DNA of 64,000 nt. Origin: Massospora cicadina. Its lineage: Eukaryota; Entomophthoromycota; Entomophthoromycetes; Entomophthorales; Entomophthoraceae. A program made the translations under genes and the position numbers. This document shows positions 3,561 to 61,427 of this stretch, piece by piece. The DNA lies in the NCBI GenBank assembly GCA_022478985.1, contig JAKSZP010013558.1:1-64000 (forward strand), given 5' to 3'. The notes under the pieces were generated by a model that searched no databases, was not told the origin of the DNA, and saw only the letters and a list, made by a program, of their open reading frames with translations. Position 1 is the first letter of the stretch; each line of letters starts with the position of its first letter.

Positions 3561-3599
3561 ATGATACGCTCCTATTGCTTATATGCTCAAAGGAACTTT

Positions 3600-10904: not shown

Positions 10905-11268
10905 CGTGTAGTGGGTTCCTTGGTCCCGTTGATTTTAAAATAAGCTCAGAGCATGCTCCCCCGCCTCATCTTCATAAAGTTGGTACCCCTGCAGAAGCCA
11001 TTCTATAATTCCCCGCAGCTGCTGGGGGGTCACATTCATAGAGTGACCTTGTTGATCAGCCACTAACTCATGGCAAGTTTTTAACTGCAGAGGAATTACA
11101 CCATTTTCATCACCCAGCTCTGTTACTCTAAAAAGTGCCAGTTCATCATTGCAGGCTACCCTATCTTCCTCGACATATAAAATTTGAAACCCTTACAGGG
11201 TTTGGTGTAACAAGTGAGGGCTTGCCATCTTTCCCTAATTCCAATAAGCTACAGTTGACCAGTTGTCC

Positions 11269-11284
11269 CCTGTAGTGAGTACCA
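11269..11284 (-). other. Primer-binding site of gypsy B
   Basis: Immediately inside the 5' LTR (one base after it) the element strand reads TGGTACTCACTACAGG. It starts with TGG, complementary to a tRNA 3' CCA end. Element D has TGTTGCTTACTACAGG at the same place (13 of 16 identical), so both probably use the same tRNA primer. Confidence 0.7.
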
Positions 11285-11285
11285 C

Positions 11286-11750
11286 TGTTAATTTTTAGTG
11301 TAACAGTTTAATTCCGCTGAGCTGGCTTACACAGGGTATTAGCCACTGAGCAACTGAATTAAATAATATATAGATCGCCAACTTTATTATAAACCAATAT
11401 ATAAAATATATGGAGCAATTGCACCAATTGACACTTTATTATATTCTAATAAACACAGACTTGTCTGCTAATTACTAAGAATCTCTTCCTCTCATTCTTC
11501 CACTCAACTCTTATCTTGGTATTCCAAGTCATATGCATCCTCTACTAAGTAATCTCCTATTCGTTATCTTTTAGGAGTTTTCATCTATCTCAAGATTTTG
11601 CAGAATTACCTTAATTTTCCAAGCTATCATTACTTTGATCAATTTTCTTTTTCCATATAACTTTTTTGTTCAATCTCGAGGCTAACCTTAACTCTAATTT
11701 CCAATCTGCCAGGGTATACCTTATTGTCCATTCAAATTAACTTTTTGACA
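11286..11750 (-). repeat. 5' LTR of gypsy B
   Basis: Partner of the LTR at 3,069-3,539. On the plus strand it starts TGTTAATTTTTAGTG and ends CTTTTTGACA, so it has TG...CA ends. Visible point differences and small indels between the two LTRs show the insertion is not recent. Downstream, LINE L3 resumes at ACCCTCAAAGGG. Confidence 0.93.
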
Positions 11751-13425
11751 ACCCTCAAAGGGTTCTCCACCAAGGGGACCCTTTAAGCCCACGCTTGTAC
11801 AACTTCATCCTCGACCCACTTTTACACAATGTGAATGCACGCCTTATTGGTTTCCATGTGCAAGGCCAAGCACCAGTTAAGATGCTGGCATTTGCTGATG
11901 ACTGTTTGGTTGGGGTGTCTAACAATCAAGATGCACACGCGCTGGAAGCAACTATCCAGGACTACTTATGGTCAGTAACGCCGCACTTAACTCTTCCATA
12001 ATTGAAATCATTCTCCTTGTCTGGTACCAGGCCTGCTGGTCACCAGCACCCTATTACCTACCTACTTCAACAGCTAACTCTCAGGTTTTCTTTCCCTGCC
12101 CTCCCCATACTGCCCCGCTTGTGCTCCCTTTTGTGCCAAGACTTACTGCTAGTCTGATGTGACATTTGGGTGTGCGTCTGGAGGCGGGAGGGTATGCCTC
12201 ATTGGTAATGGAGCACCACATCCTTGACAATGTCACAAAGTGCATCACAACCCTAAGAGCCCACCATACTACCCTCCCCAGACATGTTGTGCTTTCCAAC
12301 TCAATGCTCCTGTTCATTAAATGGTTTGTGGCCCGCGCTATCATCTTTTCTCCCTCTTTCTTACGCTTTTTGTACGCTCTCCTACAAGGGTGGCTTTGAT
12401 TAGGCCGCTTACCCCTGTGCGCCTGGATGTCATTTTTGGCCCACGCCATAGTGGTGGTATGGGCCTGCTCAACTTTGAGGTCCATGCCGTTAAAATACTT
12501 GGCACCTGGGTCGCTACAGTCACCAACCTCACACCCCTAGACCACCACTGGTCATGCGCGGCCCACTTCGATTTTTCCTGCGCCCTTGACCTCCGCAATA
12601 CTACCCACCCCCATTCACTGTTACACTATCTTGCCTCTCATTCCTCTGCCGCAGGCCCTCATGGGATACTGACCCACTTCAAACGTATTCTCCTTTCCAT
12701 GCAGAGTGCTGAGTGGAGAATAATCATCAGTGGACACACTACCAAGAGAGGTCGCCCTAGTCCCCATTTCAAACAAGAAGTCCATGGGAAAGTCGTTTTA
12801 AAAAACCTGGTACTCCAACATCCTCACATAATTGCCCATGTGGATTACCTTGACAATCTAGACATCCCATACTCTTTGGAGACCCAAAAGGGCATTTAGC
12901 AGTACACACACCATCCTCTTTTACAACCCCAAATCCGCGCCCATGTGTGGAGATGCCTGCGAAGGGTGTATCACATGGATGAGCATTCCAATGCCTCTCA
13001 ACCTTCATGCATTGTATGCAGTCAATATGGGTCATTTATCTATCACTTGGAAGAATGCCCACCATCACAGGCGATCTTGTGGGATGTTAAGCGCATCTTT
13101 TGCCAGTAACGTGAGCAAACTTTCAGCCTTTCTAAAAACATATTCATCTTTTCTGTGTCCTCCCCTATCCACCCTTCACTCCACGCCTTAATTGTTAAAA
13201 TAGCTCTATGGATGATCCAATCTATTGTCCTTGATGCACTATCTGCGCTACCCCTACTCTGCATTAATCTGTGCGTCGCTTCCATTCCCACCTCATGGAT
13301 CACTTTCAAGCTTAGTTGTTTGGCCACCTGACGTCCTTCCAACTCTGGTTGGTGTCATCCTGATTCCCCATCTGGTTCCTTACTTCAGAACCTGTCAAAA
13401 AACCTCTTTTCTGAACAGTAGGCGC
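11751..13425 (+). pseudogene. LINE copy L3, reverse transcriptase and C-terminal segment
   Basis: Continuation of L3 after the gypsy B insertion. Recognisable in order: YNFILDPLLHNVNARLIGF (from 11,798), the RT catalytic block MLAFADDCLVGVSNN (about 11,884) with FADD intact, the GGMGLLNF block (about 12,452), ILLSMQSAEWRIIISGHT (about 12,690) and the C-terminal cysteine region near 12,990-13,080. The match to L1 fades near 13,425, where an unrelated insert begins. Frames change several times. Confidence 0.85.
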
Positions 13426-14455
13426 CGCTAGTGTACCAGGCCAACCATTATGGAGACTTTCTAAACTTTTCTGTTTTGCCTTCATTGGCATACTAACCCC
13501 CTTTAAGTCTGCGTCCAATCTACCAACACAGCAAACCAATGACTTCGCCTTAGCCCCAGGGTCCTTGGTGTGCCCCAACGAGTCCTGACCCATCCTAGGT
13601 GGACAAGGCACTCCCATTCTGCATTAACCTCCTGACTCTTCACCAACCCATCTGGGCATGTGTTTATGAGTCCGTCCCCCATCCTGGGTGGCTATGACAC
13701 TCCCGCACTCCACCCCTCAGGGCTGACAGCCAGTTAGCACATCATCATTGGTGGCTGGTTGGTCAGGTTTCCGCCAGTTCCTCATAGGGAGGAGGAATAG
13801 GAGCTGGCAACGTTGGCCATTTCAGGCGCATCACCCCACGCCTAAGTTGGGGATCTCCAGTCCCATCTTCTCCTAATTTAGCAGACTAACTATTATTAGC
13901 TAAAATAAGATGAACGAAAGAGAGATCTTTATTTGGAAGGAAGAATGACTATTTATACTCTAGGCTACTGCGCCTATTAAACCCCTTGGCAATCCAAACC
14001 AGAACTTAAATAAGCTTTCAGTTATTCATGGTAGCTATTCCCTCTCAATCCACTCATCTGATTCACCACATAAAAAATTAGTTCGTCCTATCCTTGGCAC
14101 AAATCACCAGCGGATTGTGTATAAATTAAATAGTATAATTATATTTCTTTGAGCATACTTGGCATGAGTTGCCGGTGCTCCAAATTAGTCAGTTGAATCA
14201 TAGGCAAATGATTTATTAAAGAATTCATCAGCTTTCCATTATAATATTCCTACAATGACCCACAAATGGCAATTGGTGGTGAATGCAGATTTCACCAAAC
14301 CTAAACCAATTTATATTATTATCACATAAGAAATATTGAACTAGGCAATTAGCTGATAATTACACCAGACTAATTGACACCCTTAATTCTAATATTATTA
14401 GGAGGAATCCATCTGGTTAATTTCATGACAGACCATTTCCTTCAATCATGTTCAG
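13426..14455. mobile_element. Unclassified ~1 kb insert in the 3' end of LINE L3
   Basis: LINE L3 matches L1 up to about 13,425 and again from about 14,455 (TTTGGCCCAGGCCTCACCTGTCACTC against the L1 text near 21,850). The intervening kilobase has no LINE match and no coding potential. It includes a TATA-like TATTTATACTC at about 13,950 and AT-rich sequence. Size and lack of genes would fit a solo LTR, but I cannot place TG...CA ends with a convincing 5-bp duplication, so boundaries are approximate. Confidence 0.5.
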
Positions 14456-14655
14456 TTTTGGCCCAGGCCTCACCTGTCACTCCCCCTCTTCCTTCCCCTG
14501 GCAGTCCTGCTAGCAACATGAGGTAGCTTTGGCTCCTCTGGGGTGCCTCTCGTTTTACTTGGAGCTTGGTAGTTGGTAGTTGGTGTTTATCAGAAGTGGT
14601 CATCCCATGGTCAGCCTTCCCTAATTATATTAAAAATCTAAAAAAAACTAGTTAC
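14456..14655 (+). mobile_element. 3' end of LINE copy L3
   Basis: Matches the last 200 bases of L1 and L2, including CTCCTCTGGGGTGCC, AGAAGTGGTCATCCCATGG and the tail core TGGTCAGCCTTCC, followed by an A-rich end with runs of A. This is the untranslated tail the LINE reverse transcriptase is expected to recognise. Confidence 0.8.
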
Positions 14656-15526: not shown

Positions 15527-15542
15527 GATCTATCTTATATAA

Positions 15543-16059
15543 CTGAGGCAGCCAACCAGGGGATAGACAATACTGAGCTCTGAGAAGCAAAAATTATACT
15601 AAGCTAGAAATTCAATGAACAGAAAGAGATAAGCGCATCACTCAAACCAGATCAAAAATAAAAATAAAAAACTAAAATGAACCGACCAGGTCAGCTGCAG
15701 TAAACTGCTATGCATCCATGGTGGGGTGAGTCAGGATTAAAAGGCTCATCTTCATCCTCTGTGTCAGACAGTGATTGAAGAGCGCTGTGAGCATGGGAGT
15801 GGGTGCATCTGCAAAATGGGGCTTGAGATAGCAGAGTGGCTCAGGCGGCTCAAATTTAGCTATGAAGAGGGTTGTGATTTAAATAGATAAGGCTTTCTTA
15901 GCCTCAAGGCGAAGTTTGGGGTAGCATGGTAAAGTGGCGATGTTGTTGCTAGTAACGAAGGTCTTGGGCCAAATTTTGTGACCATTGCAACTTTTTGTAT
16001 TGCCCTGTGTGCAACTTGGTGTAATTGGAGAAATTCTTTTTTATGAACTTGTTGCATGG
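15543..16059 (-). mobile_element. Half-LINE X copy 1, 3' part
   Basis: Matches the left part of X copy 2 (57,942 onward): both run from ACCAGGGGAT near the outer end through GGTCTTGGGCCAAA/CTTGGGGGTGAGG-type blocks to GCATGG. It is the 3' portion of a minus-strand element. It is cut at 16,060 by gypsy A and resumes at 27,273. The element's sense-strand 3' end reads TATCCCCTGGTTGGCTGCC, resembling the LINE tail. A candidate target duplication is GATCTAT plus AT-rich text at about 15,527 and 28,672. Confidence 0.75.
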
Positions 16060-16761
16060 TGTCATGTGTAGATGACATCAAAGTGGGGACCAACCCCAAG
16101 GATAAGGCTGGGCGCCAGGAGGCCCAGAAGGTGAAGCTTCAGGCCCTCCCTGACCTCAGGCACACACTGGACCGACGCTGGGTACAAGCTAAATATTCCC
16201 AGGTTGATACTAGTGAGGTGCTAAACGCCCAGCCCCTTATGTCAGCCCAGGCGTTAAAATGAGTGGTTTATACAATAAACACATACAGTTCAGTCTGGTT
16301 AGTTGAGGAACGGGGTTTCAAGACTGTTCCATTTACAAGATCATAAGTTTGGGTTGAATCCAATCTCAATCAATTAAATGAGTAAAGTCAGTTTTAGCAT
16401 ACTCTACCAATCTAGATAGAAGTGTGTGCCTATTGGTGGGTCGGTGCTTGGGTCCACTTATGCAAACCCCTTATTCCCCTGTCATAGTTTAAATATGTTT
16501 TCCCTGACCAACATTCCTTGTTGGTTGACTTCCCATCAAACAATTATCCCGTTTAAACGTTTTATTATTAATTTTCCAACAATTTTGTGCACAAACCTCT
16601 TCAAGGAGGTCTCATGCTCCGTTATCCTTGCCATTTTGGACACAACAAGATTATCACCTCGTGCATTGTTGGTTCGCCCAGGTACCTCCAACCTGGGCCA
16701 TTTACCCCTTCTCTCAATGTGCACCGCAACGTTTTTGGCTGGTTACTTATTTCATTTCTTT
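16060..16761 (+). repeat. 5' LTR of gypsy A, first part
   Basis: Matches 26,434-27,134 almost throughout, e.g. GACCAACCCCAAGGATAAGG, GTCTGTGTTTATT-type AATAAACACA and CCTCGTGCA. It ends at TTATTTCATTTCTTT, which is the LINE L1 target duplication. Confidence 0.94.
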
Positions 16762-16959
16762 AGAACTTTTCTCTCTCGTTGCAATCACTTTTGCAACTTA
16801 TTCAATTCAAGTCTGATTCTAGTTTGATAATCTCACAGAGGAGAATATTCTGTGCCCATGTCGGGGAGCAGGTGGGTAAGTAAGGTAAGAGGAGCAGGTG
16901 GTAGGCCCGCGGCCTCAAACGTTCAAAAACGCCCTGGAGAAACTGGCGGATTGAAAAAA

Positions 16960-18260
16960 ATTTAAAAAAACTGGCGGTTACTATTTCCCCAGAAATCCTC
17001 ACTTGGCAAGCGCGATGCAACCAATACAACAACACGCTGCACTCCCAACCACTCTAATTGGTGGAATACGGAGTCCATGTGTTTCTGGACATCCAACAAA
17101 CAGCTCTATGGGAAAAAATTTGTGGGGATGTGTACACTTTTTTCCTGACTGCAGTGTATGTCGCACCTCACTCCATGTCATGCGGTTGGCTGGACCTCAG
17201 TTTCAAAAACAAGGAGGCAGCAGACAAAGCTGCTGCGGTGCGTGTGTTGATTGACCTCCCTGAAGGGCAACGGTTCATCAAAACCAAATGCACCAGATGG
17301 ACAAAATCCAACCAAATTTTCCTCACGTTTGACTTTTTGCCTACTACAGTAAAACGCGCCATTTTGGAGCAACACCTGAAAGATGGTCTCACCATTTACG
17401 GCGAAATACATTCTTTTATGATGCAACGCTTTACACTGATGCCACACCTGTGCACCGGCAAAGCTATCACAGTTCTGACCCCAACTGAGGAGATTGCGAA
17501 GGACCTAACCCAGATCACGCACTCCACATATATCAATATTGAAGGGCATACCACCCACCCTTTCCAGGTAACTGTGGACAGCGCGCCCCCATCTGCACCC
17601 ACTGTGACGCGTTCAGCCATAAGGCACATGCATGCCCCACCAAGGAGGGCATCACATTCCAAGAGCACCCCTTGCGGCCATGGCCAGCGGAGAGGCGCAC
17701 TATGAACCAATTGCAAGCATCAAAGAGGCTTTCCCATGGGGAGCACAAGGCTGCTACCTACTGGTAAAACCTATTTCCCTGCAAGAGTGGAAGAAGGCCA
17801 AGCAGGCCCGCAGGGCCGCGGCCAAGGAAGTGGCCAATTCACCACCACTATCCCACACTCCCAACGCCAGGAGGACATCAAAACCTTCGCGGTGGAAGCA
17901 ACTCAGGAATCCATCAATCAATCAGATTGGGAAGCCCATGCCAATTGGGCCACCCAATCTGAGGATCCGATGGGTGACTCAATTTCACCCAATCTTTGCA
18001 ACCAAGCTCTGGTTGAAACCGACTTGGTCTCCAACCTACCTGAAAAAAAATTTTCTAACCCACTTGATGGTGCACTGAACTCATCCACACCGCAAAAAAT
18101 TCTTTCGACGTCAGGGAAACAAAAAGCGAAGGCAAAAGCCAAAAAAATCTTTCTGCTAAAATCAACAAAACTAAAGATAGCATTGCTGCAAACACCCATG
18201 CTGCCATGAAGGCCCGTGGGGATCTAGAGGAGGCTAGTGGGCCTGGGTGCCCACCCCCTC
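16960..18260 (+). pseudogene. LINE L1 ORF1 protein (nucleic-acid-binding, CCHC)
   Basis: ORF1 proteins of L1/Tx1-type LINEs coat the element RNA. The frame can be followed from the text ISPEILTWQARCNQ (about 16,985) through VAPHSMSCGWLDL (17,158) and MQRFTLMPHLCTGKAI (17,420) to the knuckle CTHCDAFSHKAHAC (about 17,600; C-X2-C-X4-H-X4-C intact). After it comes a K/A-rich tail (EWKKAKQARRAAAKE, about 17,788). Defects: a TAA at about 17,056, and one C missing from the C-run near 17,588 (five here, six in L2), which throws the knuckle out of frame. No upstream ATG is clear, so the start is uncertain. Confidence 0.85.
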
Positions 18261-18275
18261 ACACCTAAGGTGTGA

Positions 18276-21200
18276 TGGGGGAAACCTTCACTTTAGGGAC
18301 GTTGAATATTGCTGGACTTAAAGCCTCATTGTCCTGGGCTAGGAAACAAAGTTTTCTACAAAAATATCTACCCATGGATATCCTGGCCATCCAGGAGTCC
18401 CACTGTCCGTGAGGTTCTGAGGATGCTTGGAAAACCATGCTCCTCCCATCCCTATCCTTTTGGTCAGAGCACTGTGAGGTGCTAGTTCAGAAAAACAATT
18501 TTTTCAAATTTTATTATTGGAATCCTTCCTCAAAGGCTGAGTCCTCATTGTCACTTTCTTGTGGGCTAACGTGGCACACGCTATCTTCAACATCTACGCC
18601 CCAACCTGTGCATGAGAATGTTGGGAATTTTTCTCATTGGTCAAATCCCTTCCAGTACCCTCAGACCCTTTTGTAGTTGGCGATATGAACTGTTGGCTAA
18701 ACACCAATGGACCATTGGCCTTCCTCCTCCCACGCCCCCAGGGTCACGTAGAACTCCACATTCTAAAGGCCACCCTTGGGTTAATGGATGCGCTGCCACG
18801 GCGAGCCCTGCTGCTTGAAACATGATGTGACCCCACATCCACAACGGCCAATTAGGTCCTTGACCCGCATAGACCTTATCCTTATGCTGGCGAAATTCCA
18901 ACCCCACATTTCCCACTTCAAAACAACAAAAATCAAATTTTCTGACCACTGGCTGGTCTTGATAACCTACCACCTACCTGTCACAGTGGCTAAGGCCCCA
19001 CATTGGTGCAAACTCCGCCCTCCTAAACTTGCATCGCCAGGATTTTCCACCTGGGTGGAATCAGCAACTTTGGAAAAAGAGTTTGTTACACCGTTTTGCG
19101 TGGACCCCATCTTCACATGGGCAGCCTTCAAATAGGATACCATCCGCCACTCTCGCCACCTCTCCTCCCAACGCTCATGAGCCACATTGGCCGTCATCTC
19201 ATGCGCTCTGGCAGAGTTGGCACACCTGGAGTCCAACATCCCAGCCACAGGATACAGCCCTGCATGGGGCTGGAAGTGGGCAGAGGCAGCTGCCCACCTC
19301 AACACACTCGAAAGGCAACACAAACATCGGGTTTATGTTCAGTACAGGGCCAAATGCATTACAGAGGTTGACAAGTGCACCGCATATTTTTTTAAAAAAA
19401 TTTTGCACCACGCCAGAGTGTGGCCTGCACACAGGTGTGAAGATTGGATGATTCCATCGCGGATAGACCAGCCAAAGTGACAATTGAAACACAAAAGTAT
19501 TACTCCTAGTTATACCAATCTGATCCAATTCAGCTGGCTGAAGTGGCAGAATTTCTCGACTGAACCCACATCTGCACCGTTTCCTAATACCCGAAACTAA
19601 TGGATTTGATTACTCTGAACGAATTATGGACAGCCATCCACAGTGCACCAAACTGACAAATGCCCAGGCCCATATGGCATTCCATATGAATTCTATAAAA
19701 AGTACTTCAAATATATATCCCCACTACTGCTTTCCTCACTTAACCAGAGCCTTCTGGAAACGCGCCTCCTACCAGGAGGACAAGAGGCCTTCACCGTCAC
19801 ACTCTTCAAGAAAGGGGACAAGCTAGACTTAGCCAACTGGCACCCCATTTCTTTAACTAACACGGATACAAAAATTTTAACAAAAATCATGGCTAACCTT
19901 TTAGGGATTGTAGCATCTGCCACCATCTCCCCAGAACAGTTCAGTTTCATACCCAGAAGGGCGATTTGGGACAACGTGCACTCTGTAACTAACGCATGCC
20001 ACTCCACAGCCTCTGGGGCACTTGTATTCTTGGACCAACAGAAGGCCTATGATAGAGTAAACTGGGAATACCTCAGGGCCTGCCTCCATCAATTCCGCTT
20101 ACCCCCTCGTTTCATCAACTGGGTGATGCTGCTTACAGAATCTGCAACAATGGCAGTACGTGGCCCTGGCTTCTTAACGGAAGTAGTCCGCCCTCAAAGG
20201 GGCTTGCGACAAGGGGACCCACTTAGCCCACTCTTATACAACTTCAGCCTTGACCCACTACTTCGAAATGTGAATGCCCAACTCACTGGGTTCCATGTGC
20301 CAGGCCAAGCCCCAGTTAATATGATGGCGTTTGCAGATGACTGTGTGGTTGGGGTGTCTAATAATAAAGATGCACGCGCACTTAAAGCTCTCATCCAGGA
20401 GTACTCCTGGGTAAGTAACGCTGCACTGAACGCTTCCAAAACCGAAATCATCCTCCTTGGTCGGTACCAAACCTGCTGGGCCCCAGCAACCAGTTCCCAG
20501 CCCGGCCCATCTGCTCGCACACGTGCTCGCCCTCCCTGCTCACCCCACACTGCCCCACTGGTGCTCCCCTTCATGCCACGCCCTACCATAGGGCTGGTCC
20601 ACCATCTGGGCGTGTGGGTGGAGGCAGGCGGGTACGCATCAGCAGTAATGGAGAGTCATATTCTAGACAACGTGACGAAGTGCATCGCCTCCCTCAGAGC
20701 CCACCCTACTTCCCTTACTGGCAGGGTTGTTTTAGCCAACTCTATGCTCCTCTTCAAAGTCTGGTTTGGAGCCCACGCCATCCCCTTCTCTCCAAGCTTT
20801 TTCAATTCCTTGTATGCCCTGCTGCAAGGATGGCTTTGTCAGGTCGCCCACCATCAGTATGGCTAGAGGTCATGTTTGGCCCTCATCATCATGGTGGCAT
20901 GGGCCTGCTTGACTTCAAAGCTCATGCTGCCAAGATCCTGGGCACCTGGATTGCAGCCATCACCGCCCCTATGCTCCCCTCCCAACACTGGTCCCAAGCA
21001 GCCTGCTCCAACTTCTTCCGCGCCTTGGGCCTCAACAATCCATCGAACCCTCACTCCCTGATGAAATACCTGGCTTCACATCCATCGACCACAGGTCCTC
21101 ATGGGACTAAAATTCACTACAAACGAATCCTCCTCTCCATGCGGAGCGCTGAGTGGAGAATTCTTATTAGTGGACACACAGCCCAGAGAGGCCGCCCCTC

Positions 21201-21900
21201 TCCTCAGTTCACACAAGAAGTACAGGGGCTACCCATCCAAGATGGCGTGATCCCCACACGGCCCCATGTCCTATCCAGGGTGGACCACCTTGACATGATG
21301 GACATCCCTTACTCCATTGAGACCCAGAAGACTATTTGGAAATACGCACACCACCCTCTGTTGCAGCCTCAAATTCGCTCCCATGTGTGGCGCTGCCTGA
21401 GGCGAGTGTACCATATGGCTGAGCGCTCTAACGCTTTACTTTCATCCTGCGTCATGTGTGGCCAGTATGGAACGCTGTTCCACCGCCTGGAGAAGTGTCC
21501 TACCTCTAAAGTGATATGGCGCGAAGTTCAACGTCTGCTGGGCCAGGATCAAGCACATCCCTTCAGTCTGTCAAGAGATATATTTGCTCTATCTATGGCC
21601 TCCCCCTTCCACCCTCCCTCCATGCTCTGGTGGTTGCAATCGCCATGTGGACTATCCATACGATTGTCTTGGATGCCATCGCAGGCTCCACCCCCACCCT
21701 CCCAGAAGCTGTCCACAGATTCTGGTCCCATTTGGTGGACCACTCTCAGGCGTGGATGTTTGGATACCTCCCACCGCGTCGCTGACAGCTGGTCTCCTCC
21801 TGGTTCCCAGTTTGGTTCATCAATCAGACCCTTTCCTCCACACGTTTTCACCTGTGGCTACGGCCCCTTCACACGTTCCCTCCCCCTCCCCATAAGTGGC
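18276..21900 (+). pseudogene. LINE L1 ORF2: endonuclease and reverse transcriptase
   Basis: Starts MGETFTLGTLNIAGLKA. Endonuclease blocks: AIQESHC (about 18,390), VVGDMNCW (18,680) and the SDHWLVL catalytic histidine region (18,945). RT from about 19,640: FLDQQKAYDRVNWEYL, QRGLRQGDPLSPLLYN and AFADDCVVG (FADD active site, about 20,330). The C-terminal part has GGMGLLDFKAHAAKILGTW and a cysteine motif CVMCGQYGTLFHRLEKC (about 21,450). Defects: TGA at about 18,411, shared with L2; frameshifts in the endonuclease; and a one-base G deletion near 20,838 (GGCTTTGTCAGG against GGCTTTGGTCAGG in L2) that splits the RT frame. No RNase H is seen. Confidence 0.93.
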
Positions 21901-21990
21901 GTTCCCGCTGGCAACAAGAGATAGCATCGCTTCTCTGGGGTGCCTTCCCTGTTACTAAGTTTCATTTCTTCTGGGTCATATTCAGAAGTG

Positions 21991-22030
21991 TCTGTCCCAT
22001 GGTCAGCCTTCCTTGCAATAAGTTTAAAAT
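21991..22030 (+). promoter_or_regulatory. LINE 3' tail (candidate RT recognition sequence)
   Basis: The tail GTCTGTCCCATGGTCAGCCT followed by TCCTTGCAATAAG is shared with L2 (28,720-28,765, reverse) and L3. A similar core, GTCCCAAGGTCA, lies at the 3' ends of both SINEs, and TCCCCTGGT-CA/TG-GCC at the 3' ends of both X copies. LINE enzymes of the stringent type recognise such tails. The role here is inferred. Confidence 0.65.
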
Positions 22031-22045
22031 TATTGCATTTCTTTG

Positions 22046-22180: not shown

Positions 22181-22523
22181 TTAGTTGACCAACCTCTTAG
22201 ATTTATGTGCACAAACTTTTCTGTGTGGAACTTTTCCAAAGTGGAAACAGGGGGCGCCAGTTGTATGCTTCAGTGGTCATTAGCTGTACCACTGTTTCCT
22301 CTTTTTCCCAAAGGTTGGAGCAACTCAGCGTTCTTATTGTTGCTTCCAACTGGAAAGTATCCACCCTTCATGCTCGTACCTGGTGGATACAGATGCTTTG
22401 AGGTCCGACAGTCAGGATTCCCCAACTTTCCACCAAAATTATCAATTCTGAATTTAATAAACGAGTTTTTCTTTTACCGCGTGTTCAGCCAATGCTGGCG
22501 GAATCAGCGCAGATGGCCTGTGG

Positions 22524-23381
22524 GTGTTGGCCTTGGATAACATTGGGCATTTCATTGCTGTTCAAGGGATAGGGTTGTTTGCATCTGAAAATGCATTTTA
22601 TAATGAAAACCTGATCCCTACCTATGAACCATTTATTAGCTTATATGGCCTGGATGAGGACCCTATTCTGGTATATCAGATTACCACTGAGAACCCATGT
22701 TTGACCCCTACCATGATCTGGGGCACTCAGGAAGTGGAAAAGGAACTTTGTCTTAAATATAATCATGTTTATGCACCTGCAGAAGGTGTGGTAGGATATA
22801 TGGCCTCAGTAGTAAGAGTGACCCACTATCCCTCCCCCTTCTATGATTCCAAAACATACCCTGAAGGCTTTCTCGAGCCAGAGGAAGAATTTTCAGGTGA
22901 GGTGGTGGCGTTTTCTGCTTTTAATAAATCCCATTATGGATACTTTTTATTGACCGCTACCCTTACATCCCCTTTTGGGAAGTTCAGCACAACTATTTTA
23001 GTGGATACCAGGGCCACTAATAATTTTATTAAACAAGACCTTGCTGACTACCTTGAGTTGAGTTACTCACCAGGTGGTATGGTTAGAGGTGGAGCTTCTC
23101 AAGGTATCCCTGCGCTATACGTCATGGTGTTGGTGGACTATCAGGTGGGCGCCTATCTTCTGTATGACCGTTTTCAAGCTATCAGGAACCTCTTGTTTCC
23201 CATTATTTTGGGTGTAGAGTGGTGGAGAAAGTTTGACGTCAGGACTAATTTGAAAGAAAACACTCGATCTTTGTCTTTGTCCAATAATCACAAGTTGATT
23301 GTTCCTTTGTCGGAGGATAACGCCAAGGCATATTACCTAATTGGCCCAATATTCCCTCTTGTAATGTTGCCCCTTTGCTGA
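22524..23381 (+). pseudogene. Gypsy A protease region
   Basis: An 858-nt open frame. The C-terminal half is the aspartic protease: FSTTILVDTRATNNFIKQDL (about residues 153-172), where the active-site DTG reads DTR, a change expected to abolish activity. The flap-side block GVEWWRKFDVRTN follows. Upstream text (YGLDEDPILVYQITTENP) is not recognised and may be the tail of gag or a linker. No gag core or zinc knuckle is seen in the 340 bp between this frame and the LTR. Confidence 0.8.
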
Positions 23382-24080
23382 AGATCTCTGTGGAGGTTCC
23401 CCTAGTGTCCTGTTTGGAGGGGTTGGAATATTCTTTTGATGCAGCATCCGCTAACACACTTCCTGAGCACTCTGAATTTGACTGTGACTTCAAACTCACT
23501 GTGGATCTGGTGCATATATCTTCCCCCATTCACCCATTGACTGTGTGGGAGGAAGAGGCTTTGGATGTGTGGTTGAAGGAACAGTTAGCCAAAGGTGCGA
23601 TTTTTCGGCGTACCTCCCCTGTTTGCTCCCCACTTCTCTTTGTTGAGAAGGCTGATGGTAATCTACTTCCCTGCATATACTATGGGAACCTCAATAACGT
23701 TACTGTAACAGACCTCCATCCCATCCCTTTGGATTCAAAGATTGCACGCTATGTGGAGAAGGCGAAGGTCCTCTCCAAGCTGGATTGCATCAATGCGTTC
23801 AATCAGATCCGGATTAAAAAGGTAAAAGAGTGGTTAACTGCATTCTGTACCAGAAAAGGGATCTTCCAGTTTTTGGAATGCCCTTTGGGCTTAAGAATGC
23901 CCCTGCTATCTTTCATCGCCGCATTGATGCAGCGTTAGGGGACTTGTTAGGGGTATGCATGGTTGCCTACATGGACGACATTCTGGTGTTTCCCCCGACC
24001 ATGAGTCCCATGCAGTACACCTTCAGCAAGTGGTGGAGAGGTTAAAGGCAGCCAGACTTACACTGAAGATAAGCAAGTGT
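23375..24080 (+). pseudogene. Gypsy A reverse transcriptase
   Basis: Begins with the typical approach WLKEQLAKGAIFRRTSPVCS, then VLSKLDCINAFNQIRIK (catalytic Asp of motif A) and FGLKNAPAIFHRRIDAALGD (frame change near 23,880). The active site is VAYMDDILVF (YMDD, about 23,970) and the thumb text is LKISKCEFFKSQVTFLG. At least two frame changes break it. It makes cDNA from the element RNA in intact relatives. Confidence 0.9.
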
Positions 24081-24778
24081 GAGTTTTTCAAGTCCCAGGT
24101 CACTTTTCTGGGCAACGTCGTGTTTGACCAAGGACACATGATAATTCCAGACAAGGAGAAGGCGATTTGTGAGTGTCCCGCCCCCACCTCCGTCAAGGAT
24201 TTGAGAAGCTTTTTGGGGATATGTATGTTCCTCAAGAAGTTCACGCTTAATCTTTCCGAGGTGGCAGCTCCCTTATATAAGGCTAGTGATGCAAAGGTGC
24301 TTCAGTGGTCCTCCATTTTGGAGGACGCTTTCCAAGTAGTGAAGTGCACCCTGTTGTCCACGTCTGTCCTTCACCATGTTGACCCTTCCAAAGAGTTCAT
24401 TGTGTCTATGGATGCCTCCAACTTCGCCATAGCAGCTGCCTTGTTACAAGTGCGCGAAGATGGAATAGAGCATCCAGTTGGATATTTTTCTAGGAAAATG
24501 TCTTTGCCAGAGTTGAACTACGCGTTTATGATAAAAAGTTACTGGCAGTGGTGGAGGCGCTGACTTATTGGCGTCACCACTTTCATGGCTCATCCCAACC
24601 TTTCCTGGTATGTACAGACCACCGTGCCTTGCTGTACTACCGCGCTCCTCATGACCTAACCCCACAGCAGACCCTTTGGTATGAGACCCTTGCCCAATTT
24701 GCATTCATGTATGATTTCACCAAGGGCAAGGATAATGGTTTGGCGGATGCTTTGAGACGCAATTCTGCTTTAGCCTGA
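24081..24778 (+). pseudogene. Gypsy A RNase H domain
   Basis: Connection text SVKDLRSFLGICMFLKKF, then the RNase H start FIVSMDASNFAIAAALLQV with the first catalytic Asp, HPVGYFSRKMSLPELNYA, a break near 24,535, then VEALTYWRHHFHGSSQPFLV, VCTDHRALLYY (TDH) and NGLADALRRN (catalytic Asp of the ADALSR-type motif). Order and spacing fit Ty3/gypsy RNase H. Confidence 0.9.
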
Positions 24779-26433: not shown

Positions 26434-27272
26434 TGTCATGTGTAGATGACATTAAAGTGGGGACCAACCCCAAGGATAAGGCTGGGCGCCAGGAGGCCCA
26501 GAAGGTGAATCTTCAGGCCCTCCCTGACCTCAGGCACACACTAAACTAACGCTGGGTACAAGCTAAATATGCCTAAGTTTGTACTAGTGAGGTGCCAAAC
26601 GCCCAGCCCCTTATGTCAGCCCAAACGTTAAAATGAACGTTTTATATAATAAACACAGATGGTTCAGTTCAGTTAGTTGAGAAACAGGGTTTTGAAACCC
26701 ATTCCATTTATAAGATAACATGTTCAGGTCAAATCCAACTTCAATTGATTAAATGAGTGAAGTTAGTTTTAGCATACTCTACCAATCTAGATGGTAGTGT
26801 ATGCCTATTGGTGGGTCAGTGCTTGGGTCCACTTATGCAAACCCCTTATTCCCCTGTCATAGTTTAAATATGTTTTTCCTGACCAACATTCCTTGTTGGT
26901 TGACTTCCCACTAAACAATATCCCCGTTTTAATATTTTATTATGATTTTTTAACAATCCTGTGCACAAACCTCTTCAAGGAGGCCTCATGCTCCTTTAAC
27001 TTTGCCTTTTTGGACACAACAAGATTATCACCTCGTGCACTGTTGGTTCGCCCAGGTACCTTAAACCTGGGTCATTTACCCCTTCTCTCCGTGTGCACCG
27101 CAACGTTTTTGGATGGTTACTTATTGCATTTCTTTGCTTGAGCTATTATTGCTCCAGCACCCTCTGCTGGGCACTAGTATCTTTAGTATTAACAGCTAGT
27201 TTCCTTGCGTTGGCTTTGTGCACCGTGAACCACCACGCTGGAAACAGGAGAGTTATAGATACTCTCCTAACA
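26434..27272 (+). repeat. 3' LTR of gypsy A
   Basis: Uninterrupted 839-bp LTR, TGTCATG...CCTAACA. It contains AATAAACACA near 26,649 as a possible polyadenylation signal. Near 27,118 it preserves TTATTGCATTTCTTTGCTTG, the empty form of the site used by LINE L1 in the other LTR. Confidence 0.93.
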
Positions 27273-28671
27273 TGGGGGGAAGGACGGGGATGGGATTCCC
27301 TTGACCAATACTGTGACTGATTTCATTACAGCCTTTCAGAGGAGGCAAGAATAAGGGGATGTACATCTTCTTCAATTAGTTGGTGGTCACTTCAGAATTC
27401 ATCAGTATCAGAGCATAGAGCATAGTGCTGAGTTGAAATTGAAGTGCATAATCTGCATTTAAGTTACTTTAAGTCCTGGGGCCTTGACGAAGTCAGGGAT
27501 GTGATTTCCCAAATCATCAACCTAGTCCAAACTTACAGGGGTTTTGTTTAAAATAATAGGCTAATCAGCATATGGATGGGCTGGATTGGGTGGTTGAGTA
27601 GGTTTTTGTTTTCTGGGATCCATGCTGAATCCCAACTAGTTGAAGTAGGAGTAATGGTTTGACATGTAGGTTCCTTTTGTTGAGTCCATGGAAGTTTTAT
27701 CTACCATTTTGGGTGGAGGGGAGGGAGGATTGTTCCCCATTTGAAAAAGTTTTATGTTGGCAAGGGGAGCATTATTGGGGGAGTTGAGCGTGTGGGCTTC
27801 AGCTTGCTATGGTGGGGCAGCGCCACTTTGAGAGATCCAGGTCAAAACAAGTGGGGCAGATCGTGCTCCTTTATTTACTCTGGCCCAGAAAGGGCAGAGG
27901 GGGGCAGAGGGGACAACAATGCGATGGGGAATCAAAATGGTGATTTCAGTTAATGTTGGGCATATAGTTGCAAAGATGCAAGGACCCGCAAGTCATTTGG
28001 CTCCATTGGGAGCCAAAAATTGTAAAATGGGGTCAGCACCATATACTAACAAACCAGCTATTAGTTCATTGTATAAAGTTTCAGGTGGGAGGTGGGTGGG
28101 GAGGCCTGAAATTGAACCACAAGAGTGGTGTCATCAGGCAACCAGGTGCAAGTGGTTGAGATGGGGGTTCTCTGAAACACCAGGGGAATGTTGGCTGTGA
28201 TTTCAGCATCAGCTTCACAAGTGAATATGAGGTCAAAGTACCCCTTTTAGAGGCGGAAGTCAATCAAGCTTGCGGGCTGCATAAGAACCTGGGCTAATTC
28301 TATTATTTTGTTTGTCAATATAGGGATATAAGTTGCCATATTCAACCCAGAGGCCAAATTGCATCATGCTTTGGGGGAGCACAATGGGGCTATGAGGTAC
28401 CGTTTGGGAACATGCAAGGTGGAGGGCGGGATCCTTAGGGGGAACTTATAGACCTAAGGAAATGGGTGCTGGTCAACCTAGTTTGAAAGCATTTCCTTGC
28501 TGGGCAGAAGATGCTAGGGGTTTTGCCGCTGCCCCATTTTGGAGCAGCGGGCAGTAGGGCCAAGTACATTGGGGTTTTGCTGTGTGTTGGTTTTCTATAG
28601 CTGTTTAGTTCTGTAATTTTTAGTTTGCTAGAATATGTTGTCAAGCGGAATAAAAACTGGCCATAAGAGGT
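27273..28671 (-). mobile_element. Half-LINE X copy 1, 5' part (ORF1-like pseudogene)
   Basis: Continues X copy 1 beyond gypsy A. It matches 58,440-59,810, e.g. the GTTGAGYGTGTGGGCT block (27,783 and 58,972), GGGGCAGATCGTG and GGCCCAGAAAGG. On the minus strand the ORF1-like text includes LKSQPTFPWCFREPPSQPL (about 28,195) and ICPTCFDLDLSKWRC (about 27,866-27,824), a CCHC-like knuckle with His replaced by Leu. Both pieces together are about 1.92 kb, close to the 1.87 kb of copy 2. No RT or endonuclease sequence is present. Frames are broken. Confidence 0.75.
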
Positions 28672-28702: not shown

Positions 28703-28719
28703 TCAAGCTTCTACATGTT
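28703..28719. repeat. Target-site duplication of LINE L2 (left)
   Basis: TCAAGCTTCTACATGTT, identical to 33,999-34,015. A perfect 17-bp duplication shows target-primed insertion and gives the exact limits of L2. Confidence 0.95.
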
Positions 28720-28929
28720 TTTAAATTTTTAAATTTATTGCGGGGAAGGCTGACCATGAGATGGACACTTCCGAATATGACTCAGACGAGACAAAACTTA
28801 GTACCAGGGGAGGCACCCCATAGAAGCGATGCTATCTCTTGTTGCCAGCGGGAACGCCACTTATGGGAAGGGGGAGGGAACGTGTGTAGGGGGCGTAGCC
28901 ACTATTGAGCACGTGTGGAGGAAGGGGTC

Positions 28930-31900
28930 TGATTTGATGAATCAGACTGGGAACCAGGAGGAGACCAGCTGTCAGCGACGTGGTGGGAGATATCCAAACA
29001 TCCACGCTTGAAAGTGATCCACCAAATGAGACTGGAATCTGTGGACAGCTTCAGGGAGGTGGGGATGGATCCAGCGATGGCATCCAAGACAATCGTGTGG
29101 ATAGTCCACATGGCGATTGCAACCACCAGAGCACAAAGGGAGGGGGGAGGGGGAGGCCATTGATGAAGCAAACATATATCTTGACAGACTGAAGGGATGT
29201 GTTTGATCCTGGCCTAGCAGACGTTGGACTTCGCGCCATATTACTTTAGAGGTGGGGCACTTCTCCAGTCGGTGAAACAGCGTTCCATACTGGCCACACA
29301 CGACACAGGATTAGTGTAAAGCATTAGAGCGCTCAGCTGTACGATACACCCGCCTCAGGCAGCGCCACACATGGGAGCGGAATTGAGGCTGCAACAGAGG
29401 ATGGTGTGCGTATTTCCAGATAGTCTTTTGGGTATCAGTGGAATAAGGGATGTCCATCATGTCCAGGTAGTCCACCCTGGATAGGACTTGAGGTCGAATG
29501 AGGATCACGCCATCATGGATGGGTAGCCCCTGTACCTCTTGTGTGAACTGAGGAGAGGGGCGGCCTCTTCAGGTTGTATGTCCACTAATACGAATTCTCC
29601 ACTCTGCGCTTCGCATGGAGAGTAGGATTCATTTGTAGTGGGTTTTGGTCCCGTGAGGACCTGTGGCTGATGTGTGTGATGCGAGGTATTTCATCAGGGA
29701 GTGGGGGTTTGATGGATTGTTGAGGCCCAAGGCTCGGGAGAAGTTGGAGCGGGCCGCGCAGGACCAGTGTTGGGATGGGAGTGTAGGAGCAGTGACGGCT
29801 GCAATCCAGGTGCCCAGGATCTTGGCGGCATGGGCTTTGAAGTCAAGTAGGCCCATGCCACCATGATGATGAGGGCCAAACATGACCTCTAGCCATACTG
29901 GTGGAGGGCGGCCTGACCAAAGCCAACCTTGTAGCAAAGCATACAGGGATTTGAAGAAGCTTGGGGAGAAGGGGATGGCGTGGGCTCCGAACCAGACTTT
30001 GGATAGGAGCATAGAGTTGGCAAGAACAACCCTGCCAGTGAGGGTAGTAGGGTGGGCTCTGAGAGAGGCGATTCGCTTCGTCACGTTGTCCAGTATATGG
30101 CACTCCATTACTGCTGACGCGTATCCACCTGCCTCCAACCACACGCTCAGATGGCGTACCGGTCCTATGGTAGGTCGTGGCACAAAGGGGAGCAACAGTG
30201 GAGCGGTGTATTTTGAGTTAATAAGGCGTGGACGTGGGTGAGCAGATGGGCCGGGTTGGGAACTACTTGCTGGGGCCCAGCAGTTCTGAAACCAACCAAG
30301 GAGGATGATTTTGGTTTTGGAGGCGTTCAGTGCCGCGTTGCTTACCCAGGAATATTCCTGGATGAGGGCTTTAAGCGCGCGTGCATCTTTGTTATTAGAC
30401 ACCCCCACCACGCAATCATCTGCAAATGCCATCATCTTGACTGGGGTTTGGTCTGGCACATGGACCCCAGTGAGTTGGGCATTCACATTTCGCATTAGTG
30501 GGTCAAGGATGAAGTTGTATAAGAGTGGGCTCAGGGGGTCCCCTTGTCGCAGGCCCCTTTGAGGACGGACTACTTCTGTTAGGAAACCTGGGCCGCGCAC
30601 TGCCATTGTTGCAGATTCCGTGAGCAGCATCACCCAGTTAATGAAGCGGGGAGGTAGGCGGAATTGTTGGAGGCAGGCCCTAAGGTATTCCCAGTTTACT
30701 CTATCATAGGCCTTTTGTTGGTCCAAGAATACAAGTGCCCCAGAGGCTGTGGACTGACACACATTAGCCACAGAGTGCACTTTATCCCAAATCGACCTTC
30801 TGGGGATGAAACCAAATTGTTCTGGAGAGATGGTGGCAGATGCTACAGTCCCTAAATGGTTAGCCATGATTTTTGTTATAATTTTGGTGTCTGTGTTTGT
30901 TAGAGAAATGGGGCGCCAGTTGGCTAAGTCTAGCCTATCCCCTTTCTTGAAGAGTGTGACCGTAAAGGCCTCATGTCCTCCTGGTAGGAGGCGCATTTCC
31001 AACAGGCTTTGGTTGAGTGAGGCTAGCAGCAATGGGGATATATATTTAAATATTTTTTGTAGAACTCATATGGAATGCCATCTGGGCCTGGGCATTTTCA
31101 GTTTGGCGTACCATGAATGGTAGTCCATAATTTGTTTGGAGTAATTAAATTCATTATTTCTGGGTATCAGAAAATGGTGCGGATATGAGCTCTGTCAAGA
31201 AATTCCGCCATTTCGGCCAGCTGAATTGGTTTGGCTCAGTATAACTTGGAGTAATATCTTTGCGTTTTGATTGCCACTTCAGCCGGTGTGTCCACAATAG
31301 AATTATCCGATCTTCGCACCTGTGTGCAGGCCATGCTCTGGCATGGTGCAAAAAAATTTTTGAAGAAGTATGCGGTGCACTTGTCACCTTTAGTGATGCG
31401 TGTGGCCCTGTATAGGACACAAACCCGATGTTTGTGTTGCCTTTCAAGTGCATTGAGGTGGGCGGCTGCCTCCGCCCACTTCTGGCCCCATGCAGGGCTA
31501 TATCCTGAGGCTGGAATGTTGGACTCCAAGTGGGCCAATTCTGCCAGCACGCGCAATATAACCGCCGATGTGGCTTGTGAGCGTCTGGATGAGAGATGGC
31601 GATAGTGGCGGATGGTGTCTTCTTTGAAAGTTGCCCATGTGGAAATGGGGTCCGCGCAAAACGGTGCAACAAACAATTTTGCCAAAGTTGCCTCTTCCAC
31701 CCACGTGGAAAATCCTGGCGACGCGAGCTCTGGGGGGCAGATTTTGCACCAATGTGGGGCCTTTGCAACTGTGACGGGTAAGTGGTATGTTATCGAGACC
31801 AGTCGGTGGTCGGAGAATTCCATTTTTGTTGTTTTGAAGTGGGAGATGTGGGGTTGGAATTTCGCTGGCGCTAGAATAAGGTCAATGCGGGTCATGGACC

Positions 31901-32484
31901 TTAATTGGCCGTTGTGGATGTGGGGATGCATCATGTTTTCAAGCAGTGGGGCATGTCGTGGCAGCGCATCCATTAACCCAAGGGTGGCTTTTAAAACGCG
32001 TAGTTCTACGTGACCCTGTGGGGCATGGGGTGAGGGCGGCCACCGGTCCATTGGTGAGGTTAGCCAACAGTTCATGTCACCAATTAGGAAATAATTGGGG
32101 GGTAGTGGGAGGGTTTGACCGATGAGAAAAATTCCAGACGCTCTTGTGCACTGTTTGGGGCATAAATGTTGACGATTGTGTGTGCAACATCACCCATGAG
32201 AAGGTGACAATGAGCACTTGGTCATTTAGGAATGTTTCTGAAGATGTAAATTTGAAAAAATTGTTTTTCTGAATTAGCGCCCCACAGTGCTTTGACCAAA
32301 AGGATAGGGATGGTAGGAGCATTGTTTTCCAAGCTTCTCTAGAACCTCATGGACAGTGGGTTTCCTGGATGGCCAGGATATCCATGGGTAAATTGTTTTG
32401 TAAAGAACTCAGTTTCCTAGCCCGGGGCAGGGAGGCCTTGAGTCCGGTGATATTCAGCATCCCTAGAGTGAAGGTTTCCCCCAT
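28930..32484 (-). pseudogene. LINE L2 ORF2: endonuclease and reverse transcriptase
   Basis: Starts MGETFTLGMLNITGLKA at 32,484. Endonuclease: AIQETHC (about 32,365) then a TGA at the same site as in L1, and FSDHRLVSITYHL (about 31,820). RT is open from 31,032 to 29,629: FLDQQKAYDRVNWEYL, QRGLRQGDPLSPLLYN, AFADDCVVG (FADD) and GGMGLLDFKAHAAKILGTW. It ends at THYK followed by TGA where L1 has CGA. The C-terminal text with SHVWRCLRRVY and CGQYGTLFHRLEKC continues to about 29,000. A frameshift lies near 32,180. The FADD site and palm are intact. Confidence 0.93.
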
Positions 32485-54960: not shown

Positions 54961-54976
54961 ATATGGATATCGTTTT

Positions 54977-57885: not shown

Positions 57886-57941
57886 GTACATAAAATAAAT
57901 GGCTATATATATCTTATATATAAAAGTTAAAATTTAATCAA

Positions 57942-59810
57942 GGCACATTGACCAGGGGATGGACATTGCCAAGCACTAACAAAAGAAAACCACACCAAAA
58001 GTTGAAACAACATGGCTGAAGCCCTGCAAATGATGTGAAAAACCAAACGCTAAACTCCAACCAAGTCAGATGTGAAAACTGCTAACCAACCATGGTGGAG
58101 GGAGAGGGGGGACCAGGAGGCTAAGTGAGCTCAACTGGGGCCAATAGGCAGTGGCACAAAGCAGAGAGCAAGGGCATAGGCGCATCTTGGAAGTGGGGGT
58201 CCAGTGAGGGGAGTGGCGCTGGCCAAGGGATACCTTTTTTGAGGCAATTAGACAGGTAAATGGCAAGGGTCTTCTCACATTTAAGGCAGATGTCACGCAA
58301 GGAAGAAGCCATGTCTACAACCTTGGGGGTGAGGCAGGTTTTTGGGCTAAACTTAGCTTGTTGCGCCAAGAATTTGATATTATTGCTGGCAAAAGAGAAT
58401 TGGTGGAGAAATTATTGTTGTTGTGGGAGGGTCAGCATGGGGTCCATGAGAGGGGGGACAATGCCTTTGGATAAAAACTCAATGGACAAACTTGCGGCAG
58501 ACCAGAGCAATATATCATGTAGGGAGGCAATTACCTCTCTAAATAACTGATGATTGGATTGGAATATGGGGGCACCTGGGTGAGGCAAATAGTAGTGAGG
58601 GGGGAACTGTACCACATAGTAGGCATTGATGAACTTTTCAAAGCAAGAAGGGCTGATCAATTTGGAGACAGGATCACCCAATTCATAGACTTTGTCCAAA
58701 TAATTCCAGAGATTTTGGTTGACAATAATTAATTCAGGAGAATGCGTTGGCATGGGGGAGCATGGCTTGGGATTATAGCAAGTGTGGCTTAGAATTGACT
58801 GGAGTCCAGTCAGACCCCTGATTAGTTGATTGAGGAGAAGGGGCTTGAGGACACTGCTCCTGATTGGCTGGGGCTGGCACAGCTGCAGATTCCAGCTTTT
58901 TGATAGGAGGGGGAGGAAGGTGCCCCAGGGGAAGAAAGTAACCAGGTTAGCAATTGGGTCATTGTGTGAACAGTTGAGTGTGTGGGCTGCAGCTTGGGTG
59001 TTGGAGGGGCAGCACCGTTTTTAATGGTCTAGTTTGAAACAGGTAGGGCAGATGGTGCGCCCTCCATCCACGCTGGCCCAGAAAGGATGGTCTGGGGCAG
59101 AGAGAATGATGGTGCAAGGGAGAATCTAGAAGACAACCTTCGAGGAAGTGGGATGTATGGTTGTGAAGGCATGAGGGCCTGCAAGTCAAGAGGCTCCAAT
59201 GAGAACTACAAATTGGAGGATGGGGTCTTAACTGTATGCTGACAAACTGGCCAACAGTTAATTGTATAAAATTTTTTTGGGGGGGGGAGGTGGGTAGGGA
59301 GGCCTGCAAACTGAACCATTAGAGTGGTATCAGTGGGCAACTGGGTTCTAGTGGTAGGGAGGGGTAACCTCTGGAACACCAGGGGAATGGTAGCTGCAAC
59401 TGCTGCATCAGCTTCACACAGGAAGCCAAGGTCAAAATACCCCTTGAAGGGGCAGAAGTTGAAGCCAGCAAGATGCAAAAGATCCTGGGCAAGTTTGATG
59501 ATAAGGCAGTCAGAATATGGGAACAACTTGCCATATTTGACCCAAAGGCCAAAGTGCATGGTGCTCCGAGGGAGTACTATGGGGCAATGGGGCACTGCCT
59601 GAGTGCAGGCGAGGTGTAAAGCTAGGTCCTTAGGCGGAATGAAGCGAATGTTGAGTTGGGAGGGCTAGTAGAACCAGCCCAGGCGCATTTTGGCAGAGGC
59701 TGAAAAACATTAGTAGGGGGCGCCCCCTGCCCCACAAGGGGGCAGCGGGCGTTGAGCTCATCAACATAGGGGACTGGAGAGGGCCAATGATGAGTGGAGT
59801 TTGTTTTTTT
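57942..59810 (-). mobile_element. Half-LINE X copy 2 (ORF1-only retroelement)
   Basis: A 1.87-kb element flanked by AAATTTAATCAA (57,930-57,941) and AAATTAATCAA (59,811-59,821), a likely target duplication. On the minus strand it encodes a broken ORF1-like protein: FGLWVKYGKLFPYSDCLIIK (about 59,540), IPLVFQRLPLPTTRTQLPTD, then VDGGRTICPTCFKLDH and KRCC (about 59,065-59,010). The last is a C-X2-C-X4-H-X4-C knuckle in the same setting as the LINE's VDSAPPICTHCDAFGHKAHAC. The remaining kilobase has no endonuclease or RT motif. The sense 3' end reads CCATCCCCTGGTCAATGTGCC, close to the LINE tail. It matches X copy 1 over its whole length. Confidence 0.75.
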
Positions 59811-59890: not shown

Positions 59891-60033
59891 GGGGGTTGGC
59901 CTGGCAGGGTAATTCCTGCTTCCACTCTAGTGCAGGTTTTGTTTAACACATGTTCAAATCCTGTACTGGCTAGAAAAAATCTTGATGTGTCATATTTGTC
60001 CCAAGGTCAACCCACCTTAATTACTTTAAGTCA
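59891..60033 (+). mobile_element. Short tRNA-derived SINE A
   Basis: Flanked by AATTTGTAA at 59,882-59,890 and 60,034-60,042. A B-box-like GTTCAAATCC is at about 59,952. The 3' tail is TTTGTCCCAAGGTCAACCCA. Only 143 bp: the tRNA-like head and the tail are present, with most of the body seen in SINE B missing. The A box is poor. Confidence 0.7.
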
Positions 60034-60042
60034 AATTTGTAA

Positions 60043-61102: not shown

Positions 61103-61427
61103 CTTAGGGGGTGTGGCATAGTCAAGAGGGCGTCCCACTACCCCTCACATCGTGGGTTCAAATCCTGTCATGGCAGAAATTGCATTAATTGCATTTCTGT
61201 ACCAAGAGGATATCTGAACATGTGGATTTGTGCACCATGCCTTGGTCCAACCAAGAGAATCAGTGAAGTTAAATTCATGTAATCCTGACCTATCAGAACA
61301 TGCGCAGAAAGGGTTTACCCCCAGTAATTGGGTTTTGTCCTCCACTCCTATATTGTTGCTCCCTACTCCCTATCCTCTCTATCAGTGTGGTATATTTGTC
61401 CCAAGGTCAGACAACCTCAAATAAAAT
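61103..61427 (+). mobile_element. tRNA-derived SINE B (325 bp)
   Basis: Flanked by TATAATAAAATAGA at 61,089-61,102 and 61,428-61,441 (14 of 14). The head looks like a tRNA gene: A-box-like TGGCATAGTCAAGAGGGC at about 61,114 and a canonical B box GGTTCAAATCC at 61,155-61,165. RNA polymerase III would use these. A unique body of about 200 bp follows, then the tail TTTGTCCCAAGGTCAGACAA and an AT-rich end CTCAAATAAAAT. It is not a functional tRNA: no matching acceptor stem follows the T arm. Confidence 0.88.

Follow-up and report, generated by a model that had tools for sequence, protein, structure and literature searches.

Retroelements in the window

The window, that is, the whole stretch of 64,000 nucleotides analysed here (positions 1 to 64,000 of contig JAKSZP010013558.1 of Massospora cicadina), contains three LINE copies (L1, L2 and L3), two SINEs that we call SINE A and SINE B, and members of a group of elements with an ORF1 and no ORF2 that we call X (Table 1). 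LINE copy L1 is an insertion, since a paralogue of its surroundings at 26434-27273 has an empty site in place of the LINE. Its reverse transcriptase (RT) matches RVT_1 with an E value of 9.5e-33 and human L1 ORF2p with 3e-29, compared with 2.8e-18 for R2; judged by these matches, the RT is of L1 type. The closest named relative is a protein of M. cicadina itself (60% over 46% of the query), which shares 176 of 276 positions, gaps included, with copy L2, in long nearly identical blocks. For an APE-type endonuclease, no Pfam or PDB match was obtained with 31236-32189 of the decayed copy L2. A putative zinc knuckle of the LINE ORF1 reached an E value of 0.0012 with zf-CCHC_6, short of the cut-off of that model.

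The LTR element at 3078-11750 splits copy L3; its LTRs (3078-3539 and 11292-11750) are 90.5% alike, and it contains an ORF at 6410-7066, with related stretches at 38120-39551. Open frames at 22461-24563 resemble, by eye, a broken Ty3-type polyprotein. Furthermore, there are tandem arrays at 53631-53827 and 54973-55379 with 25-nt and 71-nt units, and two repeat pairs of 73-76% identity (43814-44542 with 49458-50196, and 34329-34928 with 50330-50937).

Table 1. Retroelements of the window, their tails and the evidence for each.
Feature	Position	Strand	Evidence or remark
LINE copy L1, RT of L1 type	16762..22029	+	target duplications, empty site, RT matches
L1 target duplication, 5' copy	16747..16761	+	
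L1 target duplication, 3' copy	22030..22044	+	
Paralogous empty site of the L1 insertion	27121..27135	+	
L1 tail hairpin (21991-22030 in the original prediction)	21977..22023	+	covariance model from 40 other copies, E 5e-15
LINE copy L2, 85% identity to L1	28720..33998	-	target duplications 28703-28719 / 33999-34015
L2 tail hairpin	28733..28779	-	covariance model, E 5.9e-15
LINE copy L3, 5' part	1119-3056		split from the 3' part by the LTR element
LINE copy L3, 3' part	11752..14631	+	~67-69% identity to L1/L2 in aligned parts
L3 tail hairpin	14585..14631	+	covariance model, E 2e-7
X copy, ORF1-only element	57931..59639 (5' limit approximate)	-	ORF; relatives genome-wide
X tail hairpin	57931..57977	-	covariance model, E 1.7e-6
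Second X-group copy, 3' part	15536..15977	-	X protein match 33%, E 1.4e-7
Second X-group tail	15536-15581	-	covariance model, E 2.2e-6
X-group fragment	27717..28444	-	69% identity to 58905-59639
SINE A	59891..60033	+	tail core from 59999; target duplications 59882-59890 / 60034-60042
SINE B	61103..61427	+	tail core from 61399; target duplications 61089-61102 / 61428-61441

The tail motif across the genome

The original prediction quoted tail strings for the LINE, both SINEs and X, all of which are found at sense 3' ends on the strands it gave, and the target duplications that it placed next to the tails of L1, L2, SINE A and SINE B were confirmed with coordinates. The motif sits about 25-40 nt upstream of the true 3' end, and LINE copies continue past it as CAATAAATTTAAAA. 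We searched the assembly of this one genome (1,469,884,898 bases or 1.47 Gb, in 16,968 contigs) and found 30,961 matches to the 19-nt tail core TGTCYRTCCCMTGGTYRGC and none to its reversed control. A first look yielded 2603 candidates for the LINE1 3' end, 3212 for SINE A, 1747 for SINE B and 706 for X, with the two SINEs forming separate families. The exact SINE tail pattern has 3737 matches (control 0).

For LINE1, we fetched 20 further copies at the position where the 5' end was expected, and all 18 copies with a detectable 5' end are flanked by target duplications of 11-24 nt. Diverged LINE loci were found with a distant RT protein (P0001), and 901 nt were read on the 3' side of eight of them. 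The tail is present in seven: three are of LINE1 type, two have the stem arms UAA/UUA, one has AUG/CAU, and one has AAG/CUU within a different 3' UTR. Judged from their 3' ends alone, the diverged loci appear to be separate families. The eighth locus (L164, on contig C12595), likewise found via the distant RT protein, has no tail within the 901 nt read; it may represent a different lineage or a copy that is truncated or interrupted.

A tail pattern out of the known contexts gave 27 matches (control 0). The 20 loci fetched from these comprise five tail-only inserts, one LINE1-like locus (L137) and 14 loci with other 3' UTRs. An X-type ORF match lies at most 1.9 kb upstream of the tail in all 14, and a LINE ORF match in none. 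X is thus a diverse ORF1-only group with many subfamilies. The subfamilies from this pattern mostly have no full outer stem, a property for which the pattern itself selects.

Terminal direct repeats with a score of at least 8 flank 27 of 30 SINE A copies (raw scores, with no null run), and SINE B target duplications inside ATT repeats were excluded as evidence, as the score means little there. Box-like patterns occur in the heads of 29/29 and 25/29 SINE B copies and of 27/29 and 22/29 SINE A copies, counts that stand with no control. ARAGORN reports no tRNA in the heads by default, and reports one at relaxed thresholds that also yield chance matches. Many SINE B copies are embedded in ATT repeats or have them at their end, and some follow immediately after another SINE tail (L029-L058). 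Two SINE B copies are found side by side on each of contigs C1886 and C2338, and at locus L178 a 5'-truncated SINE A tail follows directly behind an X-type tail. The SINE core has five matches outside a SINE context, four of them LINE1-like by the matched letters; the fifth (L163) matches neither X nor LINE and is taken as chance. The SINE tail with an odd upstream sequence has 43 matches.

Tail likeness against chance

We compared the last 55 nt of the family consensus sequences with dinucleotide shuffles. The consensus copies are those nearest to the window copies and thus a non-random sample (28 LINE, 30 SINE B, 30 SINE A and 20 X copies, and a single L3). The LINE-X score was reached by 0/2000 shuffles, LINE-SINE B by 1/2000, LINE-SINE A by 9/2000, SINE A-SINE B by 0/2000 and SINE B-X by 14/2000. 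SINE A and X are not significantly alike in their tails (550/2000). The 60 nt upstream of the tail are unalike between LINE and SINE B (380/2000), LINE and SINE A (689/2000), LINE and X (1800/2000) and SINE A and SINE B (242/2000), so the likeness is limited to the tail. This does not apply to LINE-L3, a pair of related LINEs alike both in the tail and upstream of it (0/2000 each).

Single window copies also resemble the LINE consensus: SINE A was matched by 0/5000 shuffles, X at 57962 by 2/5000 and X at 15566 by 8/5000; for the SINE B consensus, 0/5000 were counted. Against 45 LINE and X tails, the best score of SINE B was 39, reached by 1/1500 shuffles, and its mean score was reached by none; for SINE A the best score was reached by 18/1500 and the mean by 30/1500. 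The best partner of SINE B is a LINE1 copy (L189), aligned over 33 columns with one gap. With moderate confidence, the SINEs appear to carry a 3' tail in common with a LINE of the same genome, more weakly so for SINE A by itself.

A covarying hairpin

With decayed CpG written as YR, the consensus tails are YRGAAGTGTCYGTCCCATGGTCAGCCTTCCTYGCAATAAA for the LINE, YRGCAATGTCYRTCCCCTGGTYRGYRTGCCTYRATTAAA for X, YRGTGYGGTATATTTGTCCCAAGGTYRGCCCACCTCRAATAAA for SINE B and TGGTGTGGTATATTTGTCCCAAGGTYRACCCACCTYRATTAC for SINE A. Outside the core, the arms form the stem GG-N1N2N3 ... N3'N2'N1'-CC. In LINE and X the apical UCCCMUGGU is constant, and the outer stem covaries, with the arms AAG/CUU, UAA/UUA and AUG/CAU among LINE loci; one of the three N pairs is missing in X. 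Five hand-chosen tail types have 13/15 N pairs, a count reached by 1/120 permutations. Copy by copy, the outer stem pairs at 123/140 positions in LINE1 (at most 107 in slid arms) and at 72/100 in X (at most 59). The same count is no better than the slid controls for SINE B (94/150, up to 90 slid) and SINE A (107/150, up to 108 slid).

So as not to hand-pick tails, we took the first 40 listed core matches, 39 of which are on one contig. The full N stem is present in 38 of these 40 core-selected copies, and 118 of 120 N cells pair (shuffles: mean 81.8, maximum 100, 0/5000). Related sequences can exceed shuffles, and AAG/CUU alone accounts for 19/40 copies, so the test that counts each arm type once is safer; there, 25/27 pair (shuffles: mean 16.2, maximum 24, 0/5000). 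Cells changed on both sides number 48 compared with 24.4 in shuffles (0/500), and the covariation score is 0.315 compared with 0.137 (0/500), both far above the slid versions. Pairs with a double change (5 vs 4.7) and pair types (13 vs 11.7) are not above shuffles. For the inner part, 86.8% of all cells are paired under a stem model CYR/YRG with CC/GG. RNAalifold agreed on the outer stem and proposed a different inner pairing, UG-CYR[UCCCM]UGG-YR, with 95.0% of cells paired.

A covariance model for which these 40 copies were the sole input detected the tails of four of the five diverged LINE loci given to it (E 7.5e-17 to 3.1e-7) in addition to the LINE and X tails of the window (Table 1). In the window it also matched the SINE B tail at 61391-61427 (E 0.67) and missed the SINE A tail; a further match at 44454-44487 (E 0.36) is probably chance. 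Elsewhere, with 10 of the 30 loci per SINE family given to the model, 8/10 SINE B tails were matched at E 0.68-2.1 and 0/10 SINE A tails. Single-sequence folding is weak evidence for the hairpin: two typed LINE tails of 50 nt have z values of -2.72 and -3.01, whereas the window tails have -0.28 (L1, 73 nt), -1.43 (L2) and 0.88 (L3). X has -1.59, the second X 0.88, the SINE tails -1.07 and -0.86 and their window copies 0.14 and 1.50. The Rfam search returned nothing usable.

There is thus a conserved stem-loop near the 3' end of the LINE, as in stringent-type LINEs. Several LINE types carry the hairpin, as do the X group and, in modified form, the two SINEs; with its covarying RNA stem, the common tail is wider than first described. 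The original prediction called the link to the SINEs fairly clear and that to X weaker, an order that the consensus shuffles and the E values of the covariance model reverse: the LINE-X link is firmly strong, the LINE-SINE link moderate. The tails of LINE-X and LINE-SINE B are above chance, and the idea of a common 3' tail holds genome-wide for the LINE and X and, less securely, for the two SINEs. Of the proposed three-member system, the tail common to the families stands, but the membership is larger than one LINE and two partners, since the hairpin is found in several types of LINE and in many subfamilies of X.

Tail-only inserts and ages

The five tail-only inserts among the 20 loci (L135, L141, L144, L145 and L147) consist of 28-43 nt with only the hairpin region and the A/T end. 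Direct repeats of 15-28 nt flank them, and 0/200 shuffles reach the score of each repeat. The other 15 loci have no comparable repeat in the stretch tested. The off-context pattern favours truncation at that point, so that 5/20 is no measure of frequency. The inserts are consistent with an RT that begins copying at the tail and halts within the hairpin.

Mean divergence from the consensus is 0.027 for LINE1, 0.051 for SINE A, 0.064 for SINE B and 0.120 for X. Changes are in excess at CpG, TpG and CpA sites (loci L001-L108), with 0.120 vs 0.031 elsewhere in SINE B and 0.200 vs 0.062 in X, a pattern that cytosine methylation or a process like RIP would leave. Among the sampled copies, the LINE1 burst is more recent than the SINEs and X, which may therefore have been moved by an older LINE from the tail group of LINE1.

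How the tail may work

We put the probability at roughly 70% that the hairpin, together with the A/T-rich end, is how the L1-type RTs of this fungus choose their RNA. The tail would consist of a ~30-nt RNA hairpin and, behind it, an A/T-rich end of AATAAA type. The LINE protein would read the fixed loop and need the stem as a shape, and target-primed reverse transcription would begin just behind the hairpin. RNAs of X and the SINEs would be copied in trans by the LINE enzyme. Target duplications of full-length LINE1 and of most SINE A copies are of similar size. That the loop would be read and the stem be exchangeable is taken from assays of zebrafish L2 proteins, in which, in the available parts of the report, the loop of the tail was read and a swapped stem tolerated (PMC4176376). 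At even odds, we would go further and see the hairpin as a self-sufficient, portable mobility handle. Its ~30 nt would integrate alone and the enzymes would take any RNA that ends in it, hence its spread over LINE types, the ORF1-only group, SINEs and bare inserts, with stems drifting by compensation and the loop locked to the enzyme.

Common descent alone might also explain the tail, if X and the LINE types inherited it from one ancestral LINE, with no role in RNA choice and with a SINE likeness that is partly chance or an old capture. The distant likeness between the ORF1s of X and the LINE (one comparison, 27% over 74 aa, E 1e-5) would suit such a history, as would the resemblance of L1 to L3 in the sequence before the tail and the fact that covarying stems arise in other conserved RNAs too. 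However, the stem changes are compensatory while the 3' UTRs of LINE1 and X are otherwise unalike, so that selection on structure is needed; moreover, the SINEs have only the tail in common, and the tail-only inserts also speak against descent alone, which we consider unlikely.

It is possible, if doubtful, that the SINEs depend on an unsampled LINE with an exactly matching tail, the LINE1 tail being only a cousin. The SINE-specific GTGTGGTATATTTGTCCCAAGG is in no sampled LINE, SINE A and SINE B are closer to each other than to any LINE, and the sampled SINEs are older than the sampled LINE1 copies. Yet genome-wide searches by tail patterns found neither a LINE with the exact SINE tail nor, as the original prediction had allowed for, another LINE much closer to it. 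The mostly LINE1-like character of the out-of-context SINE-core matches argues against such a LINE, as do the SINE tails with odd upstream sequences: the eight that were fetched all proved to be variants of the SINEs or fragments made up of a SINE tail only. An unsampled LINE would probably still belong to the same tail group. Finally, the tail could be a host RNA 3'-end signal (AATAAA plus hairpin), of which the LINE enzyme sees only the resulting A-rich end, and CAATAAA or a similar string does follow the hairpin in most tails. We regard this as highly improbable: SINEs with putative Pol III-like heads would not be expected to need such a signal, loop and stem are in a fixed, gapless register, and SINE A ends in AATTACTTT instead of AATAAA.

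Relation to known systems

Mammalian L1 is thought to need little beyond poly(A) in its template. The HAL1 half-LINEs of mammals have only ORF1 and would need ORF2 protein from elsewhere. X likewise has ORF1 without ORF2; it differs in sharing a specific tail hairpin and in an ORF1 that is only distantly like that of LINE1. For the stringent eel and zebrafish L2, RTE and CR1 LINEs, the available parts of two reports (PMC3747384, PMC4176376) describe a hairpin that is likewise short, close to the 3' end and conserved in its loop, together with non-autonomous sharers and target-site duplications. In contrast to these, the system described here has an L1-type RT, a fungal host, many stem variants and an ORF1-only main partner, and its recognition by the enzyme is proposed from sequence. 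The L1-clade pairs of maize/sorghum and Chlamydomonas are similar in clade, covarying stem, fixed loop bases and SINE sharing, but belong to plants and algae, and in the sections available no ORF1-only partner or tail-only inserts were seen (PMC3747384). AfuSINE2-1a and LINE I-1_AF of Aspergillus fumigatus are another case of a fungal SINE with a LINE-like 3' end. They differ in being of the Tad clade with a longer plain similarity (positions 210-335), and no covarying hairpin was seen in the portion of the article available (PMC5063351). Neither for the Entomophthorales nor with an ORF1-only partner was such a system among the matches listed, which cover titles and abstract starts of part of the literature and are not proof of absence.

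According to the available text of its genome paper, 6.3% of M. cicadina consists of L1 LINEs, which is unusual among its relatives, and no word beginning with 'SINE' occurs in the main text (PMC11105155). Whether the L1 clade recognised specific tails from the start is argued for plants in the sections of that study available (PMC3747384). A fungal L1-type group in which many families carry a covarying hairpin opens this question to testing, with naturally occurring stem and loop variants set against designed swaps in an assay. The finding also offers a possible mechanism behind part of the repeat load in Entomophthorales genomes.
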